Part shown: positions 8,508-15,469 of the stretch, one piece after another
Layout: each line of letters starts with the position of its first letter
How positions within the stretch are numbered: the first letter of the stretch is position 1
From: Pseudomonas sp. KBW05
GTDB lineage: Bacteria; Pseudomonadota; Gammaproteobacteria; Pseudomonadales; Pseudomonadaceae
Direction: 5' to 3'
Assembly: GCF_003852405.1 (NCBI RefSeq)
Contig: NZ_QAJM01000008.1
Coordinates: forward strand, 121,941 to 185,940
DNA length: 64,000 nucleotides
The notes under the pieces: model-generated
Database searches by the model: none
What the model was told of the DNA's origin: nothing
Seen by the model: only the letters and a program-made list of their open reading frames with translations
Position numbers and translations under genes: made by a program

Positions 8508-10565
8508 TCACACCAGCCGGAATCGTGCGGTGTTGTCACTCAAGGCCTGGCTGCCCTTGCTCAGGGTATCCGCCGCACGGTTCACCGCCCGTGCACCATC
8601 AAGCAAGCGCCCCGCCGCCTGGTCCACTTGCTGGATATTGCCGCTCACTTCGTCCGCAGTCGCGGCCTGTTCTTCGACCGCCGTGGCGATCTGCGCCAGG
8701 GTGTCGGTGACGTTCTGCACCGCGCCGGCGATTTCGCCCAGGCGGGTGCCGAGCCCGGTGACCGACGCCGCATCGGTCAACGCTTGCTCACATGCGACGC
8801 CCATCAGGTTGACCGCCTGGCTCACCGTGGCACGCAGGCTGTCCACCGTGCTGGCGATCTGTGCGGTGGAGGCCTGGGTGCGTTGCGACAGGCTGCGCAC
8901 TTCATCCGCCACCACCGCGAAGCCACGCCCCTGCTCGCCGGCGCGGGCGGCTTCGATGGCCGCGTTGAGCGCCAGCAGGTTGGTCTGCTCGGCGATGCCC
9001 CGAATGGTGTCCACCACCGATTGAATCTGCTGGCCCTGGTGGCTGACTTGCTCCAGGGCGTTGGCGGTGTCCGTCAGGCGCTGGTTGAGTTGCTGGATGC
9101 TGGCCGTGGTGCGTTGGCTATCACGGCTGCTGTCTTCGGCGATGCGCCGGGTCTGCTGGGCGCTGCCCGACGCTTGTTCGCAGCTACGGGCGACGCCCAG
9201 GGAGGTCGCGGCCAGTTGGGTGGCAGCGGCGGCGATCTGGCTGATTTGTTGTTGCTGGTCTTCGACTTCGTTGAGGGTGCTGCCCGATTGCGCATTGAGG
9301 GTGACCACCGCCGAGCCCAACTGCTGCGTCTCGTGGTTGACCCCCAGCAAGCTGGTGCGCAACTGCACCACCGCGACGTTCAGCGCAATGCTGATGGCCG
9401 CCAGTTCGTCACGCCCCTGCACCGCCACTTCCACGCAGAGGTTGCCGTCACGCAGCGACTCCGCCAGCGTGGTGATGCCACTGGCGCTGCGGCGGATCGA
9501 GGCTTGCAGGCACATGAACAGGTACAGCGCCGCCAACGCCAGCAGGCTGAACGTCGCCGCCACCGGCACGATCTGCTGGAGGGAACGATCGTGGTAGTGG
9601 CCGAGGCGCGCGTCCAGGGACGTCAGCGACTGGTTGCGCAGGGCGCCCAGGCTGCCGAGCATGACATCGACACTGCCTTCGAAGGCGGAGGTGTCGAGTT
9701 TGATGGTGCCACCGAACACGCCATCGTCGAGAATCTTGAGCTGGTTATCGAGGGTTTGCAGGCTGTTGTCATACTGCGCGGTCCACGCCTCCATGCCTGC
9801 GTACTGCTTGGCCTTGAGCGACGCGGCGGCCTTGACCAACTGGTCGCGCGCGTCGCCGATGCGGCCGCGCAGGTCGCGCATCTGCAAGCGGCTTTGCAAG
9901 GTGAACTGCCCGGACGCGATAGACGATTGCCCCACACTGGCCATGCGCCCGACACGCTCGATCAGGTCAGGGGTGTGCTGGGTGGAAATCTGCATCAGCA
10001 GGTAGGTTTCCAGCCAGGGATCGAGGATCAGGCCAGTGTCCAGCGTCACCTGCTCGCGCAGGGTTTGCATGGCGGTCAGGGCCGAGGTGAAGCGGTCATA
10101 GCCGTCCGGCCACCAACCTACGGTGCGCAGGGATTGGGAGTCCATGCCTTTGACGGTGGCCTGCAACGCCTCGAAGCGCGCGAGGGTGTCGGCGCTGGCG
10201 TGCTGGGCTTTCAGCGACTCGCCCAGGGTTTGCAGGTTTTGCAACAGCAGCGGGTAATTGGCATCGACCTTGTCCATCGCCGCCTTCGCCGCCGGGGTGG
10301 GTGCGTGCAGGATGTCGGCGGCTTTCCAGCGCGCGGCCAGGTTGCGCTGGGCGGTCAATTGGCCGTCCAGTGCATCCAGGGCCAGCAGTTGGCGAACGCC
10401 GGACTGCTCGCTGGAGATCACCGCCAATTTGGCGCGATAGTCCTGCCCGATCATCCACAGGCTGCCGGCCAAAGGCAGCATGAACAGGAGGAACAGGATC
10501 TGGAACTTGCGTGCAAAACCAAAACGGCCGAGCAGGCGGATACCGGGTGATAAAAAGCTGTGCAT
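8508..10565 (-). CDS. Methyl-accepting chemotaxis protein
   Basis: The 685-residue receptor has a first transmembrane helix (about 22-42, [18 protein letters not shown]), a long, mostly helical periplasmic sensor (about 43-330), a second transmembrane helix ([20 protein letters not shown]), a HAMP-like linker, and a cytoplasmic signalling domain. The hairpin tip has [20 protein letters not shown] and [16 protein letters not shown], the CheW/CheA contact region. The helical bundle sensor lacks Cache signatures, so the ligand is not predictable. It acts in the inner membrane, controlling flagellar motion through CheA. It is monocistronic; RefSeq-style start ATG 10565 leaves a normal cytoplasmic N-terminus. 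Confidence 0.95.
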
Positions 10566-10880
10566 GTCGGACCACTCCCCAAAAACGACCCATGCGGTGC
10601 ACCGCTGGGCAAAGCCTTGAAATGACTAACGGCAAAACGCCATGTCATTGATTAGCTTGGCTCTAGCAAGATACGGGCCGATGGCAGGACGCTGGAATCA
10701 GGCGGGGTGGCACGCTAAAAGTGCACGCGTCGTGCGCGAAAATGGGGCAAAAGCACTCAGTATCGAGGGCGCATCTGTAACTAATGGCGCAACGCGTACC
10801 TGCAGTGGAATCACTTCCTGCTGATCACGCCTTTTGCACCCGCTCAGACTGAAATCTCCTAACACCACTGGAGATTCATC
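10566..10880. other. Intergenic region between chemoreceptor and M35-type peptidase genes
   Basis: These 315 bases separate divergent genes and hold no convincing ORF. A short dyad GCACG-CGT-CGTGC lies near 10722-10734. CACTTCCTGCTGA near 10813 resembles the TTCCTA motifs found around the Mor-type gene at 12.6-13.1 kb but is one base off. CACCACTGGAGATTCATC just before 10881 supplies a GGAG ribosome-binding site for the peptidase gene. Confidence 0.4.
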
Positions 10881-11411
10881 ATGCCTCGTCAACTGACCAG
10901 CTCCGAAGCAAGAACCTATCGTGCAGCACGCTGGGCTGCACTGCGCTCCCTCAACTACACCATCGGCCAACTGAATGCGGGCAATGCCGCCGTCGCTCAG
11001 GTCTGGATGGGTGTCAACCACCCTATGGACCTGCGCGAGCTGGCACGGCGCCTAGGCATTATCCATGCGGCGCTGGCCGGTATTCATCAAGCTCAGATCG
11101 TTTTTGACGACAGCACAAACTCACACACCAATTGGTACGCCGAGGTCAATGTGAACCTGCGCGGCGCCGCACACTCCATCACACTGGCACAGCCCTTCTT
11201 CGACGCTTCAACGTACGGTAATGACTCGCGCGCCAGCACCTTGATTCATGAAGTCAGTCATTTCCGCGATGTGCTGGACACCGACGACAACGCTGACGGG
11301 CGCGCCGCCTGCCTGCGATTGGTGCAGCAGGCGCAGCAACATGACGGTGATCTCAACAGCGTCATCACCAATGCCGATAGCTGGGCGTACCTAGTAGAAG
11401 ACAGCTATTGA
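10881..11411 (+). CDS. M35 (aspzincin)-type zinc metallopeptidase domain protein
   Basis: The 176-residue product carries HEVSH at 123-127 (HExxH: His123 and His127 bind zinc, Glu124 is the base). Thr134 and Asp136 follow at the spacing of the T-x-D element of aspzincins, where Asp is the third zinc ligand. NADSWAYLVE near the C-terminus matches the NADxYxYF end of the family. M35 enzymes cleave before lysine or in basic proteins and are best known from fungi and as domains of bacterial toxins. No signal peptide is seen, so export by Sec is unlikely; the protein may be an effector-type toxin or act inside the cell. GGAG precedes the ATG. A terminator separates it from the next gene. Confidence 0.75.
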   Translation: MPRQLTSSEARTYRAARWAALRSLNYTIGQLNAGNAAVAQVWMGVNHPMDLRELARRLGIIHAALAGIHQAQIVFDDSTNSHTNWYAEVNVNLRGAAHSITLAQPFFDASTYGNDSRASTLIHEVSHFRDVLDTDDNADGRAACLRLVQQAQQHDGDLNSVITNADSWAYLVEDSY

Positions 11412-11433
11412 GCTATTACTGATGCTGCAAGGC

Positions 11434-11461
11434 AAAAAGCCTGTTTTCGAACAGGCTTTTT
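11434..11461. terminator. Rho-independent terminator
   Basis: AAAAAGCCTGTT-TTCG-AACAGGCTTTTT: a 12-base perfect inverted repeat with a TTCG loop and a T run on both strands, 22 bases after the peptidase gene and 25 bases before the next start. Confidence 0.9.
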
Positions 11462-11486
11462 CATCACCCAGGAAAAGGAGTTGATC

Positions 11487-11951
11487 ATGGACCGTCGTTT
11501 TTTGACCGCCGCTTCACTGGCCGCACTTTATTTGTTAGCCACCCCCGCGCACGCATTGAACACTGAAGAAGTTGAACCCCAAACGCTGAAAGACTATGCC
11601 ATCACATTGAATGCCAGTGCTGGTAACTTTCAGTGGCAGCAATTATGGAAAACCACGCGCACGGCTGGATACTTTAGCGAGCAATCGTCCACTCACTTCA
11701 CCGCGCCGATGAAGCAAGTTCCCGATCTCGTATCCACCGTACTTAGCAGCGCAACCAGTGTTAAGCCCTTCGCCTCCACTCGCGCAACCTACCGCTATGA
11801 CTTCGCGGAAAAAGTGGGCCAGGTCAACAAGGTCACCGTCACCGCACTATGCGTCGATGTGGACTGGCGTTCCCTCCCCAACGGAACCGCCGTTGATGAT
11901 ACAGAGAAGATGAAGACGGTCAGTTTATTGCTGGCCAAACCCTGCCCATGA
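11487..11951 (+). CDS. Exported hypothetical protein next to the M35 peptidase
   Basis: The 154-residue product has a signal peptide (MDRRFLTAASLAALYLLATPAHA, cleavage before LNTEE), so it is periplasmic. Two cysteines (ALCVDV and KPCP at the end) could form a disulfide. I do not recognise a family. ATG 11487 has AAGGAG seven bases before it; an ATG two codons earlier is less well placed. A small periplasmic protein beside a peptidase gene recalls immunity proteins of secreted toxins, but the terminator between them argues against a tight operon, so this is speculation. Confidence 0.7.
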   Translation: MDRRFLTAASLAALYLLATPAHALNTEEVEPQTLKDYAITLNASAGNFQWQQLWKTTRTAGYFSEQSSTHFTAPMKQVPDLVSTVLSSATSVKPFASTRATYRYDFAEKVGQVNKVTVTALCVDVDWRSLPNGTAVDDTEKMKTVSLLLAKPCP

Positions 11952-11956
11952 TGCAA

Positions 11957-11987
11957 ACAGCCACCCGAGGCAATCTCGGGTGGCTGT
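11957..11987. terminator. Bidirectional terminator between convergent genes
   Basis: ACAGCCACCCGAG (11957-11969) pairs with CTCGGGTGGCTGT (11975-11987) across a five-base loop, followed by ATCTTT. It sits six bases after the exported-protein gene and eleven before the muramidase stop, so it serves both. Confidence 0.8.
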
Positions 11988-11997
11988 ATCTTTACCG

Positions 11998-12537
11998 TTA
12001 CAACGCACTCGCCAACAAATCCGCTTCCTTGCAACGGCGGGTGGAATAGCGGTCACCAAAATTGCGCAAATTACTTTCTGCGGCCTTCCAGTCCCCCGCC
12101 ACCACTTGCGCCCAGAACTTTGGAGTGCGAATGGCGAGGTTGCCATATTGGAAGGCAACTGAAGCGATCACCGTCTGCATCGGTGCCGGCAATGCATCAA
12201 ACGGGCGCCCGGCAGCTTTGCTGTAGTCGCTGCTCAAGCGTGCGATAAAGGGCGCCTTGTAAGCCTCGTCAATCCTGCATGCATCGTCTGCGCTGACGTT
12301 CAGCGGCAGCGTTTGCAAGCGCGCTACGGCCTTCGCACCGATCAGGCCAAGGTAAGGTGCAAGTCGCTCAGCAAGGTCTTTGGGCAGCATATCCAGATTT
12401 TTCTGCTGCCCCAGATCAAAGCCTGTGCCTATGGTGACCCCGCTCCTGCTGTGTTCCGGGTCCGGCACATAACCGCGTGTGGCCGGCCCACCTTCGAGCC
12501 TGGCAATAAATGCCATATCAATCGAATGACTGGACAT
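11998..12537 (-). CDS. Pesticin-like muramidase (T4-lysozyme fold)
   Basis: The 179-residue protein starts DMAFIARLEGG and continues GYVPDPEHSRSGVTIGTGFD followed by LGQQ, the hallmark of the pesticin C-terminal muramidase family. Glu15 is the likely acid; Thr35 and Asp41 keep the six-residue spacing of the catalytic Thr/Asp pair of pesticin. The helical remainder (FDALPAPMQTVIASVAFQYG, KAAESNLRNFGDRY) fits a T4-lysozyme-like C-lobe. The enzyme would cut peptidoglycan between MurNAc and GlcNAc. It has no signal peptide, and no holin or spanin gene adjoins it. Such stand-alone domains occur as phage endolysins and secretion-system effectors. It is divergent from a Mor-family activator, with shared motifs between them. 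Confidence 0.8.
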   Translation of the reverse strand: MSSHSIDMAFIARLEGGPATRGYVPDPEHSRSGVTIGTGFDLGQQKNLDMLPKDLAERLAPYLGLIGAKAVARLQTLPLNVSADDACRIDEAYKAPFIARLSSDYSKAAGRPFDALPAPMQTVIASVAFQYGNLAIRTPKFWAQVVAGDWKAAESNLRNFGDRYSTRRCKEADLLASAL

Positions 12538-12556
12538 GGGTAGTTCCCTCTTGGTT

Positions 12557-12666
12557 TAGGAAACTCAAGTCCATCACTCAGGCGGGATCATCTTCAGAAG
12601 GTAAAACTTCCCTACTTTCATAGGTAAAGTTTCCTACTTATTGTCGGCGTTCATTACTTCCTAAGC
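12557..12666. promoter_or_regulatory. Cluster of TTCCTA-type repeats between muramidase and Mor-family gene
   Basis: Two direct repeats, GGTAAAACTTCCCTACTT (12600-12617) and GGTAAAGTTTCCTACTTA (12623-12640), start 23 bases apart, roughly two helical turns. A third, shorter copy CATTACTTCCTAAG follows at 12652-12665, and an inverted TTTAGGAAAC lies near 12556-12565 on the muramidase side. A further copy is at 13080. Repeats spaced this way in front of an activator gene look like its binding sites. Which protein binds is inference. Confidence 0.55.
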
Positions 12667-12700
12667 TCTGACCAGCTCTCACGCCAAGGAGGTAAGACCG

Positions 12701-13084
12701 ATGGAACCGATCGACCTGGGACACATTGATGTCCACCAACTCCCCCACTCCCTTCAGGTGTTGGTTGCCTGTATCGGTTTGGAAGATGCTTTCCGCCTGA
12801 CGTGCGTGTATGGCGGCCGCCCTAAATACATTCCAAAACAGGTTCAACGCACTTCGTTGGCGCTGATCTTGTCAACGGAATCACTACAAGCGCTGATCAA
12901 TGATTTCGCGGGTATTGCTTTGGAAATACCGAAGTCCGACCATTTTTTTCGGCAGATCCGTAATCAACATATTCAAATGGGTATTTCCAACGGTGTATCG
13001 CGAAGTGTATTGGCCGAAAAGTATGGGTTGAGCCTGCGGCAGATCGCCAATATCCGGCGCCAGGAAACTTGTCTTCATCGGTAA
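12701..13084 (+). CDS. Mor family (phage Mu middle-operon-type) transcriptional activator
   Basis: The 127-residue product has the layout of Mu Mor/C activators: an N-terminal dimerisation part (LVACIGLEDAFRLTCVYGG, with the RP.YIPK segment typical of the family) and a C-terminal helix-turn-helix (NGVSRSVLAEKYGLSLRQIA). In Mu, Mor activates middle genes by binding a short dyad at the promoter. Here no transposase, head or tail gene accompanies it, so it appears to be a domesticated regulator. AAGGAGG lies about eight bases before ATG 12701. Likely targets are the divergent muramidase gene, itself and the DUF2589 genes. Confidence 0.8.
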   Translation: MEPIDLGHIDVHQLPHSLQVLVACIGLEDAFRLTCVYGGRPKYIPKQVQRTSLALILSTESLQALINDFAGIALEIPKSDHFFRQIRNQHIQMGISNGVSRSVLAEKYGLSLRQIANIRRQETCLHR

Positions 13085-13096
13085 TTACTTCCTACT
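13080..13096 (+). promoter_or_regulatory. TTCCTA-type motif upstream of the DUF2589 genes
   Basis: GGTAATTACTTCCTACT overlaps the stop of the Mor-type gene and lies 70 bases before the first DUF2589 start. It is a further copy of the repeat found at 12600 and 12623. Between it and the gene is a direct repeat GCGCACT-TTC-GCGCACT (about 13133-13149). Confidence 0.45.
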
Positions 13097-13166
13097 GAAT
13101 CAGAAAGTTCAGCATGGATAGATTGAAGTTGCGCACTTTCGCGCACTCACGATAAGGAAATTAGAC

Positions 13167-13817
13167 ATGGCAGATATTGATAAAGGTCTCATTGGAGGCG
13201 TGATAGCCGCCCTTCCTCTGGACAAGATGATCACTGGCCCGCTGATGGCAATGATTCAGGCACAAGTCGCTGCGAGCAAAGCCTATGCGGACTTCCTCAT
13301 GGGCGTGTGCATCCAGGACGGCAAGGCCGTTTCGGTGCAGTTCGACTACGACGAAACCCTGGTTGATGAACAAGGTGTCTACAAGGGCACAGTCAGCAAG
13401 TCCATGCGCATTCCGCTGCTGGCCGCCATCAGCCACCCCAACATCACCATCCAAGAAGGCAGCATCGAGTTCGAGCTGACCATCACCCAGATGGCCGAGG
13501 ACAAAAGCTCCACTGATGTTTCCGGTGGCTTTGACGCCAAAATGGGCTGGGGCCCGTTCAGCGTGACCGTGAAAGGCTCCGCCAGCCACAAGTCCAGCCA
13601 GACCCGCAAGACCGACACCCGCGCACGCTACGAAATCAAGACCAAAATCGTGCGTCAGGACCCACCGGAAGCGCTGATGCGCGTCATCGACTTCCTCACC
13701 GATGCAGCGACCAAACCGGTCATGCTGCCAAACGCCACTGCAACCAGCCCGACGGAACTGCCAAAAGCAGGGGTACTGCCTTTGCCTGACGCCAAGCCTG
13801 CGGAAAAAACCAAGTAA
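13167..13817 (+). CDS. DUF2589 domain protein (first of two)
   Basis: The 216-residue product matches DUF2589 in its centre: MRIPLLAAISHPNITIQEG, then EFELTITQM, followed by a glycine-rich GGFDAKMGWGPFSVTVKGSA segment and RARYEIKTKIV. DUF2589 proteins have no assigned function; they are predicted beta-rich and typically occur as adjacent paralogues. The N-terminus is helical and mildly hydrophobic (LIGGVIAALPLDKMITGPL) but not a signal peptide. The last 35 residues are low-complexity, rich in Pro, Ala and Lys. ATAAGGAAATTAGAC gives a good ribosome-binding site. A paralogue follows 56 bases downstream. Confidence 0.8.
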   Translation: MADIDKGLIGGVIAALPLDKMITGPLMAMIQAQVAASKAYADFLMGVCIQDGKAVSVQFDYDETLVDEQGVYKGTVSKSMRIPLLAAISHPNITIQEGSIEFELTITQMAEDKSSTDVSGGFDAKMGWGPFSVTVKGSASHKSSQTRKTDTRARYEIKTKIVRQDPPEALMRVIDFLTDAATKPVMLPNATATSPTELPKAGVLPLPDAKPAEKTK

Positions 13818-13825
13818 CGCCAACC

Positions 13826-13845
13826 GCCCCGCCTCACGGCGGGGC
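13826..13845 (+). other. Intercistronic stem-loop between the DUF2589 genes
   Basis: GCCCCGCC-TCAC-GGCGGGGC forms a perfect eight-pair GC stem with a four-base loop and no T run. It sits nine bases after the first stop and 28 before the next ATG. It could stabilise the upstream transcript or lower downstream expression rather than terminate. Confidence 0.5.
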
Positions 13846-13873
13846 AACCCACTCGACCTGAAAGGAATCCACC

Positions 13874-14437
13874 ATGGCATTTTTCTCACGCCCCAAGGAA
13901 CCCATGTCGGCCAGTGACTTGAGCCACATCACCCGCGGGTTGCACCAGGCAGCAGCGGCCACGCACAACCTGATCGCCCAGCAATACATCGCCTTGTTCG
14001 ACCAATTCTTCGATTACAACGTTGAAGACCTGGGCACGCCGATGAAGGCCAAGATGGTCGATATCGCCCTGACCGAGGGCCATACCATCACCGTACCGCT
14101 GATCGCACTGGTGGCCCCCAAGGGTTTGGCGCTGCACAAAATGGATGTAGACCTGTCGGTAAAGATGCACAGCACCGAAGTGCAGAAGGCCAGCCACGAC
14201 TTGGAAAATGGCGACCTGCAGAGTGAGAAGTTTTTTGTGACCTTCGGCACCACCAAGCGCGAAGGCCAGGAGCGTGATCCCGACGAAGTGCAGATCCGCA
14301 TCGAATTCAAGGCCTGCGAACCACCGGAGGCGATCAACCGCATCATCGAGGAATACACCAACCTGATCAGCCCACTGGCTCACGCCCCCGCCAAACCGCC
14401 CACTGCCGAACAGGAGCCTTCAGACTTCGCGCCCTGA
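13874..14437 (+). CDS. DUF2589-like domain protein (second of two)
   Basis: The 187-residue product parallels its upstream neighbour: a helical start (DLSHITRGLHQAAAATHNLI), then MVDIALTEGHTITVPLIALV, MDVDLSVKMHSTEV and EVQIRIEFKACEPPEAINRI. The last element matches QDPPEALMRVI of the first gene, so the two are paralogues within one family. No function is known. There is no signal peptide. AAGGAATCCACC precedes ATG 13874. The tandem pair suggests a heteromeric assembly, which is inference. Confidence 0.75.
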   Translation: MAFFSRPKEPMSASDLSHITRGLHQAAAATHNLIAQQYIALFDQFFDYNVEDLGTPMKAKMVDIALTEGHTITVPLIALVAPKGLALHKMDVDLSVKMHSTEVQKASHDLENGDLQSEKFFVTFGTTKREGQERDPDEVQIRIEFKACEPPEAINRIIEEYTNLISPLAHAPAKPPTAEQEPSDFAP

Positions 14438-14453
14438 CGGCAATCCTGAGGGC

Positions 14454-14744
14454 TTATTTGCCCATCTTGTACCGGTCAAAATTGTTGATGTGATCATCCA
14501 GATTATCCTCAAGCATCATCCGGTACTGATCGCAGAAATACTTCAACATCGCCTCCCGCGCCTCGGCCATTTCCGCGCCGGACTTGAAGTTGCGCGCACT
14601 GGCCCAGGCATTGAAGCGGGTGGTGCCAAACATCATCGAGGCGCTGACCTGGCCGAGGTTTTCCTCAGCCTTGAGCTGCTCGTTGGACAGTTCGATGTGC
14701 GCATCTGCGCGGTCGTAAAAAGCTTGGTCGGTGGCATCTGCCAT
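14454..14744 (-). CDS. DUF3144 family protein
   Basis: The 96-residue acidic protein has the DUF3144 pattern FYDRADAHIELSNEQLKAEE, then VSASMMFGTTRFNAWASARN and a helical C-terminus (AEAREAMLKYFCDQYRMML). The family is found in many proteobacteria, is predicted all-helical and has no known function. It is convergent with the second DUF2589 gene (16-base gap) and lies upstream of nothing in its own orientation except trmK, which starts 30 bases beyond its own start side; a functional link to the DUF2589 genes is only positional. Confidence 0.85.
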   Translation of the reverse strand: MADATDQAFYDRADAHIELSNEQLKAEENLGQVSASMMFGTTRFNAWASARNFKSGAEMAEAREAMLKYFCDQYRMMLEDNLDDHINNFDRYKMGK

Positions 14745-14773
14745 TGCGGGAATCCTTATTGAATAACGGTCTG

Positions 14774-15469
14774 TCAGGCCAGCAGCGCGGTGATCCAGCG
14801 GGCCTGTTGGGCGATCTCTTGTAGCGTCGCCTCGGGCACCGCCTGGCGCGCCTGTTCAAGGCTGGCAAGGGTCTTCTGTTTCTGGCGCAGCATGCGTTGC
14901 CACTTGGCCAAAAATGCCGGGCTGCGCGCCTGCATTTGCAGTGGGCCAAAGTACAGTTGCTCGGCACTGTACTGCACCGGCTCGCTGCGCTCAGCGACGA
15001 TGATTTCGTAGTAGAAACGGTTTTCGTGCAGCAACTCTTCAGTGAGGATGGCGTAGCCGTTGTCCATCAACCATTGGCGCAACGGTTGCTCGCCGCCGTT
15101 GGGTTGCAGGATCAGGCGCTCCTGGCCACTGAGGTACGCCTTGCCGCTGTCGAGGATATCGCGGATGGTCTCGCCGCCCATGCCGCAGATGCTGATTGCA
15201 CTGATGCGGTCTTGCGCTTCGATGGCCGCCAAGCCGTTGGCCAGGCGCACCGTGACGTGCTGCTCCAGGCCGTTGTCACGCACCGTGCGTAGGGCCGCAT
15301 GAAACGGCGTGGTCGCCACCTCACCGGCCACCGCCGCGCTGATCGCGCCCCGGCGCAGCAAGGCCACCGGCAAGTAGCCGTGATCGGAGCCAATATCGGC
15401 CAGGCGCGCGCCCAGAGGCACGTTTGCCGCCACGCGCTCCAGGCGCGCGGATAAAGTGTGTTCGTTCAA
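14774..15469 (-). CDS. trmK: tRNA (adenine22-N1)-methyltransferase TrmK family
   Basis: The 231-residue product has the TrmK/COG2384 Rossmann methyltransferase signature: SAM motif I ADIGSDHGYLPVALL, then ISICGMGGETIRDIL and ILQPNGGEQPLRQWL. In Bacillus, TrmK methylates N1 of A22 in the D loop of tRNAs. A coiled C-terminal part (KWQRMLRQKQKTLASLEQAR) matches the family. It starts five bases after the GntR-type gene, so the two are probably cotranscribed although not obviously related. Length is normal for the family. Confidence 0.88.
   Translation of the reverse strand: MNEHTLSARLERVAANVPLGARLADIGSDHGYLPVALLRRGAISAAVAGEVATTPFHAALRTVRDNGLEQHVTVRLANGLAAIEAQDRISAISICGMGGETIRDILDSGKAYLSGQERLILQPNGGEQPLRQWLMDNGYAILTEELLHENRFYYEIIVAERSEPVQYSAEQLYFGPLQMQARSPAFLAKWQRMLRQKQKTLASLEQARQAVPEATLQEIAQQARWITALLA

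Follow-up and report, generated by a model that had tools for sequence, protein, structure and literature searches.

What might a phage-type transcription activator control when it stands in a bacterial chromosome between a divergent muramidase gene and two tandem genes of the DUF2589 family? The question is raised by a block of 3.7 kb in Pseudomonas sp. KBW05, which lies within the 64,000-nucleotide stretch analysed here (the window; contig NZ_QAJM01000008.1, positions 121,941 to 185,940). Seven genes follow one another in the window, coding for an M35 metallopeptidase, an exported protein (EXP), a muramidase of the pesticin type (MUR, minus strand), an activator of the Mor family (MOR), two DUF2589 proteins (D25A and D25B) and a DUF3144 protein. 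An earlier reading, made from the sequence alone, had named these genes in this order, and Pfam and PHROG scans of the window proteins bear it out. The answer that we favour, with somewhat less than even confidence, is that the block is a domesticated phage-type module, switched by Mor, which opens the envelope and would thereby release neighbouring proteins. By gene neighbourhood, DUF2589 pairs are linked to several families of peptidoglycan hydrolase, and TTCCTA-type repeats cluster at the putative promoters of the Mor, muramidase and DUF2589 genes.

The DUF2589 pair and its wall-enzyme neighbours

The genes at the centre of the block are these (aa, amino acids):

11998..12537, minus strand: MUR, pesticin-type muramidase, 179 aa (PF16754 Pesticin, 1.7e-44)
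12701..13084, plus strand: MOR, Mor-family transcription activator, 127 aa (PF08765, 2.9e-8; PHROG_836, 2.2e-24)
13167..13817, plus strand: DUF2589-A (D25A), 216 aa (PF11655, 2.9e-23; alignment A1)
13874..14437, plus strand: DUF2589-B (D25B), 187 aa (PF11655, 7.2e-16; alignment A2)

Both DUF2589 proteins exceed the PF11655 cut-off (83.4 and 59.3 bits against 23) and are the only matches to that family in the genome. MUR is likewise the genome's only match to its Pfam family, and neither it nor the DUF2589 proteins have a signal-peptide-like start. MUR matches pesticin structures and, across 98% of its length, shares about 50% identity with Vibrio phage proteins. In pesticin, E178, T201 and D207 are reported to be important for catalysis (excerpted text of PMC9927483). 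T35 and D41 of MUR align with T201 and D207, while E15, which precedes the aligned range, is assigned by position; none of the three residues varies among the 14 sequences compared, which include three pairs from the same genomes.

DUF2589 is rare, being found in 9 of the 398 genomes of a phylum sample (two of the nine are Pseudomonas), in 4 of 337 genomes of another class of the phylum (two of the four already in the phylum sample) and in 10 of 246 genomes of one family with enterobacterial-type gene content. It usually occurs as two adjacent genes, but G316 has a single PF11655 match, G185 a single weak one that falls below the cut-off, and in L184 the two genes are 5 kb apart. Genes on the fetched stretches were called by a simple GC-frame method. 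In the enterobacterial-type family, a Phage_lysozyme match stands at the DUF2589 locus in nine of the ten genomes, which together hold 36 such matches; the tenth has a GH19 gene 2.9 kb from DUF2589. Phage_lysozyme also lies beside the pair in a Burkholderia stretch (L120), and the lysins found beside other pairs belong to Amidase_3, Muramidase PF11860, GH19 and an M15-type endolysin, the last recognised by a PDB match (4.5e-5) and having no Pfam family. Since pesticin and phage lysozyme are distantly related according to the Pfam description, these six lysin families are not six independent folds. The association of lysin with DUF2589, which the sequence-only reading had drawn from one locus, thus recurs with other enzyme families in other bacteria: a lysin lies at most 3 kb from the pair in 21 of 28 loci, a count that does not include L124 and that scores L184 as far although its lysozyme adjoins its DUF2589-B gene. 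Within 3 kb of the pair there are 21 lysin matches in 165 kb; the outer parts of these stretches have 3 in 293 kb, a 12-fold difference in density. A 513-aa protein on L121, annotated as peptidoglycan-binding and having no Pfam match, was not counted as a lysin. For a family on which almost no open-access literature was found (DUF2589, PF11655), recurrence of the pair beside six wall-enzyme families provides a first functional lead.

Mor, the DUF2589 pair and EXP are under purifying selection, as judged from the ratio of non-synonymous to synonymous substitution (dN/dS). Against six relatives, the ratios are 0.06-0.12 for MOR, 0.05-0.16 for D25A, 0.03-0.16 for D25B, 0.11-0.29 for EXP and, leaving aside one comparison without a usable dS, 0.03-0.08 for MUR. 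The ratios are rough, because several dS values exceed 1. The same four components are, by comparison across 35 loci, inherited together: the identities of D25A, D25B, MOR and EXP correlate (Spearman 0.70-0.86), as shared descent alone would also make them do. EXP is the fastest-changing member, with a mean identity of 0.47 compared to 0.66-0.76 for D25A, D25B and MOR. Within D25B, 18 of the 20 putida-type proteins aligned in A2 end in a conserved NEFIEAATVR-like tail after a proline-rich stretch, which may be a docking peptide. At L080:7796-9000 both DUF2589 genes are fragmented, with their pieces in different frames.

The pair is also found on viral contigs. Viral relatives were taken as the best 80 of 228 in one profile search, and a second viral profile was seeded with seven open reading frames (ORFs), two of which (L158, L160) were chosen by eye. 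A second DUF2589 gene lies within two genes of D25A on 98 of 106 viral stretches (24 clusters at 88% identity), a set which excludes L147-L149, which look like bacterial chromosome, and includes two contigs twice (L158/L187, L153/L195). In five of the eight stretches without a second gene, D25A starts at most 193 bp from the stretch start. Pseudomonas-based profiles alone detected the second gene on 21 of the 26 stretches L150-L175; D25B's own profile confirmed no relative on viral contigs, and in annotated phages D25A gave one weak match, on a 4-kb faecal contig. On L158, D25B and D25A are followed by an endolysin match and then by small ORFs, of which two contain a membrane-like stretch; a weak Rz-like spanin match (2.4e-4) is present on L166, and an endolysin lies nearby on L152. 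Among 105 viral neighbours scanned against PHROG (out of 149 ORFs; 44, mainly short or antisense, were left out by hand), the commonest families have three to four members each, and the endolysin and spanin families two to three. The viral contexts fit a lysis role in some cases only.

The Mor activator, the TTCCTA-type repeats and their distribution

MOR passes the PF08765 cut-off (34.1 bits against 24.9) and is the sole match to that family in the genome; PHROG_836 is a late-activator family. The repeats around it and elsewhere in the block are as follows:

10808..10827, plus strand: GAATCACTTCCTGCTGATCA, a degenerate repeat ahead of the M35 gene; TTCCTG is conserved in all six window-type sequences compared
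12551..12570, minus strand: TTCCTA site facing MUR, from the word count
12600..12619, plus strand: TTCCCTA site 1 upstream of Mor, varying among relatives
12623..12642, plus strand: TTCCTA site 2 upstream of Mor, 23 bp after site 1
12650..12669, plus strand: TTCCTA site 3 upstream of Mor, from the word count
13080..13100, plus strand: repeat overlapping the Mor stop codon, before DUF2589-A, with an exact match at 13080-13095

Such a repeat had been proposed to precede the activator, muramidase and DUF2589 genes, and this is what the word count finds: of 13 copies of TTCC(C)TA in the 64-kb window, five lie in the gaps between muramidase and Mor and between Mor and DUF2589, 245 bp together, where 0.05 would be expected from the window density. 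In 2000 first-order resamplings the mean was 0.27 and the maximum 3, so that none of the 2000 reached five, for a word picked after the sequence-only reading had named it. The clustering is compatible with one small regulon in which these repeats are putative Mor-binding sites. Five related window-type loci retain four of these five copies as TTCCTA. The remaining one, the first upstream of Mor, is retained in L032 alone and has changed in the other four loci. Five other loci with MUR have zero to two TTCC(C)TA words upstream of Mor. As regards putatively co-regulated cargo, the degenerate repeat precedes M35 in all six sequences, and none was seen by eye before EXP. A genome-wide search for further Mor targets with a simple pattern (at most one mismatch) gave 13 matches, two of them in the block, compared to 12 for the reversed control; no distant regulon members are claimed, because matches elsewhere are at background level.

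Of 299 genomes sampled in the genus, 46 had a DUF2589 match, 45 of them over the cut-off. Forty Mor-type loci were compared, namely the window's own and 39 fetched stretches (L042-L080), with L081 (G185) excluded from the counts. Co-occurrence across Pseudomonas, which the sequence-only reading proposed as a check, holds for the activator and the pair, since Mor adjoins the pair in 39 of the 40 loci (it is missing in L053); for the muramidase it is weaker than had been stated, as MUR is present in only nine. EXP is found in 38 (missing in L053 and L054). The loci fall into three groups, four sharing the window's site, five that have MUR at another site and 31 that lack it, such that MUR is present in 9/9 of the first two groups and 0/31 of the third. 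Directly downstream in 29 of the 31 MUR-less loci is a tamB gene, named by eye. Two Vibrio plasmids also have a Mor relative, at distances of 1.2 and 3.5 kb from the pair. At L039:10001-10366 and L040:10001-10366 (Pseudomonas soli and P. capeferrum), Mor is present at the usual putida-type site and those stretches carry no DUF2589 pair.

A second Pseudomonas type comprises six loci that combine a GH19 lysin (Pfam match shown for L082) with a small companion protein and a regulator judged by eye to be AraC-like; G278 carries a locus of this type together with a Mor-type locus. The companion is a protein of about 90 aa, in many cases with a GEHQ motif, beside the pair (L084:9359-9634; L115:7497-7763; L121:7911-8186). 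It occurs in the second Pseudomonas type, some enterobacterial-type loci, Vibrio plasmids and elsewhere, belongs to no Pfam family (one protein scanned) and was not found on the 40 stretches L042-L081.

Proposed envelope opening and its rivals

On the reading that we favour, a signal of some kind would raise Mor, which would bind the TTCCTA sites, as the placement of the repeats suggests, and activate its own expression together with that of the muramidase gene, the DUF2589 operon and, probably, the M35 gene. DUF2589-A and DUF2589-B would form a hetero-assembly that takes the muramidase, which has no signal-peptide-like start, to the inner membrane or across it, a step suggested by their neighbourhood. 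The muramidase, to judge from its family and active-site residues, would then cut the wall, probably in a minority of cells, and M35, EXP and other contents would be released. Where the locus itself encodes no lysin, the wall enzyme would need to be supplied from elsewhere in the genome. A bolder version, which we think rather unlikely, makes the DUF2589-A/B pair the core of an undescribed machine common to phages and bacteria that replaces holin and spanin: a soluble two-protein assembly which, under swapped regulators, would deliver interchangeable peptidoglycan hydrolases and release toxins and enzymes. If the pair does replace holin and spanin, Gram-negative bacteria would have a new way of releasing proteins.

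Candidates for such cargo are found at other loci. Barnase-like proteins with signal-peptide-like starts are present on five stretches (L147, L177, L179, L181, L182); their joint profile matches barnase and binase (3.5e-14), and the L177 protein alone has no Pfam match. An RNAse_A_bac protein (1.5e-8) is encoded on L147 as well, and a Tle1-like phospholipase (2.8e-69) on L116. The exported RNase-like proteins fit either release or killing, and M35 and EXP appear, by analogy, to hold a comparable place. RNase-like genes whose products have signal-peptide-like starts lie downstream of DUF2589-lysozyme genes at L147:5188-5718 (RNAse_A_bac), L181:11372-11905 (a similar ORF) and L179:6384-6908 (barnase-like). 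On a Vibrio plasmid, L122:394-1917 encodes a protein annotated with a TcdA/TcdB-type glycosyltransferase domain, 5-7 kb from the pair.

Among known systems, the closest comparison is with type 10 secretion or lysis-cassette release, as in the ALC of Yersinia entomophaga with RoeA and ChiWXYZ of Serratia (excerpted texts of PMC10101115 and PMC10847048). As described in the same excerpts, type 10 also has a phage-type cell-wall enzyme in a chromosomal cluster with a dedicated regulator, and that cluster is tied to exoprotein release (PMC10101115; PMC10847048). The present block differs in its two DUF2589 proteins and its Mor-family activator, and release from it would be by analogy. It has the endolysin (PF16754, 1.7e-44), but it is not filed as type 10 because it contains no recognisable holin or spanin pair. 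MOR resembles the Mu-type middle and late activators (Mor/C) in its PF08765 and PHROG_836 matches and in preceding its putative targets; unlike them, it sits in a 3.7-kb chromosomal block without phage structural genes, and its binding to the repeats is putative. MUR shares its domain, including T35/D41 for pesticin T201/D207, with pesticin-type phage endolysins and the type VI secretion effector VgrG3cp; unlike pesticin and VgrG3cp, it is a stand-alone 179-aa protein like the Vibrio phage lysins, with no uptake domain and no VgrG. In Pseudomonas aeruginosa biofilms, explosive cell lysis is reportedly driven by a pyocin-cluster endolysin. The excerpted account of that process has a sub-population lyse and liberate its cytosolic content (PMC4834629), and the lysis proposed here would likewise free the cytosolic content of a sub-population; the block has a different lysin and regulator and no pyocin genes. 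The open-access literature yielded nothing relevant on a Mor-like gene with an endolysin in P. putida, on lysozyme, barnase and Mor in Pantoea, on Mor in Pseudomonas or on DUF3144.

Several observations weigh against envelope opening. No holin family was found among the seven proteins (Pfam, PHROG), and a simple hydropathy scan of 10400-15000 gave no credible gene; the two ORFs of at least 25 aa with a membrane-like stretch (mean hydropathy at least 1.9) in that interval are both antisense over the DUF2589 genes. Nor was there a spanin family in the seven proteins or a small sense-orientation membrane-type ORF in the block. No lysin of the tested families lies on the fetched 9-18 kb stretches of 31 of the 40 Pseudomonas Mor-type loci, and 30 of the 31 genomes without a local MUR have no pesticin match anywhere. 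In putida-type loci, TTCC(C)TA is absent or single in the stretch upstream of Mor. The lysin queries were partly drawn from the tested loci, and with six source loci removed the count becomes 15 of 22, for loci that are not phylogenetically independent. Some viral pairs adjoin RecT, SSB, ParB-like or (by eye) portal- or terminase-like genes. Archaeoglobus fulgidus has no murein. DUF2589-related genes are reported from this archaeon (excerpted text of PMC3949148). The lysin-free Pseudomonas loci, the mixed viral contexts with RecT, SSB and ParB-like genes and the archaeal report speak for a more general role, in which the pair would serve as scaffold, chaperone or envelope-assembly factor in phages, archaea and bacteria, with the lysin as a client or frequent neighbour and without lysis. 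We regard this as a serious possibility, if unlikely on balance; against it, members of six lysin families are repeatedly seen next to the pair. In one bacterial family a lysin stands at the DUF2589 locus of nine genomes out of ten, and lysin density near the pair is 12-fold that over the same flanks.

An improbable alternative is that the pair is a non-lytic device exporting the lysin and other effectors to rival cells or the medium. M35, barnase-like and RNase A-like proteins and a Tle1-type phospholipase do lie near it in different loci, and all are of kinds known among antibacterial effectors; the window's MUR and DUF2589 proteins, moreover, lack signal-peptide-like starts. However, no secretion ATPase, tube, sheath or membrane channel family was found among the seven proteins scanned (Pfam, PHROG), the RNase-like proteins carry signal-peptide-like starts of their own, and no immunity gene was identified, no systematic search for one having been made. 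Little probability attaches to abortive infection, whereby phage infection would trigger Mor and the cell would lyse before the phage matures. A phage-type activator and a lysin in a small, patchily distributed block would suit such a role, but viral contigs themselves carry the pair, no sensor gene was seen, and a PADLOC scan of the seven proteins gave a single match up to E = 1, namely Mor at 0.053. Least probable of all is a decaying phage remnant kept by chance, to which the phage-type Mor and endolysin and the broken DUF2589 genes of L080 might point; it is already disfavoured by the selection data, with dN/dS of 0.03-0.29 wherever it could be computed, active-site residues unchanged in all 14 sequences and gene order kept at several chromosomal sites.

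Block boundaries and outer genes

The extent of the block and its outer genes are as follows:

10760..14467 (about), no strand: the whole block, 3.7 kb; homology to L280 ends at 10759 and is back at 14468
10881..11411, plus strand: M35 (aspzincin) metallopeptidase gene, 176 aa (PF14521, 1.5e-13)
11487..11951, plus strand: EXP, exported protein of no assigned family, 154 aa from the ATG at 11487, with two conserved cysteines
14454..14744, minus strand: DUF3144 gene (PF11342, 1.5e-29), in the flank and outside the unit

Flanks were compared in nine DUF3144 stretches from other Pseudomonas. In one of these, the syntenic stretch L280 (from G017), 173 bp of other sequence replace the block; MCP, DUF3144, TrmK, FadR, MFS and enolase-like genes are collinear with the window, and nothing of the block lies between MCP and DUF3144. 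The difference would reflect either gain here or loss in L280. DUF3144 adjoins TrmK in L281 as well and lies elsewhere in the other seven. As homology to L280 resumes at 14468, the unit is taken as about 10760-14467 and DUF3144 as part of the flank. Its inclusion in the cluster by the sequence-only reading does not stand: it occurs in Pseudomonas without DUF2589 and beside TrmK at the block-less site. It was found in 13 of 60 Pseudomonas genomes searched, and only G009 and G057 among the 12 besides the window's own are DUF2589-positive. The same reading was right that phage structural and mobility genes are missing, with no credible match to transposase, integrase, capsid or tail families among the seven window proteins (Pfam, PHROG). 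The block proteins include none of the integrase, capsid or tail genes by which a complete prophage or tailocin would be recognised, and the flanks are collinear with L280.

EXP has a signal-peptide-like N-terminus, no Pfam match over the cut-off and no PDB match; comparison of EXP and DUF2589 with solved structures gave nothing useful. It is unlikely to be an inhibitor of MUR, because 30 of the 31 MUR-less loci carry it. The M35 protein has no signal-peptide-like start by hydropathy and contains an HExxH-like HEVSH; among the stretches fetched, its gene is found only at the window's site.

On L117:9077-10381 and L119:6785-8028, two further protein families follow DUF2589-A, one of which may be a diverged second DUF2589; the L119 members have no Pfam match. 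Between M35 and EXP, a terminator-like hairpin with flanking A and T runs was seen by eye at window positions 11434-11461.

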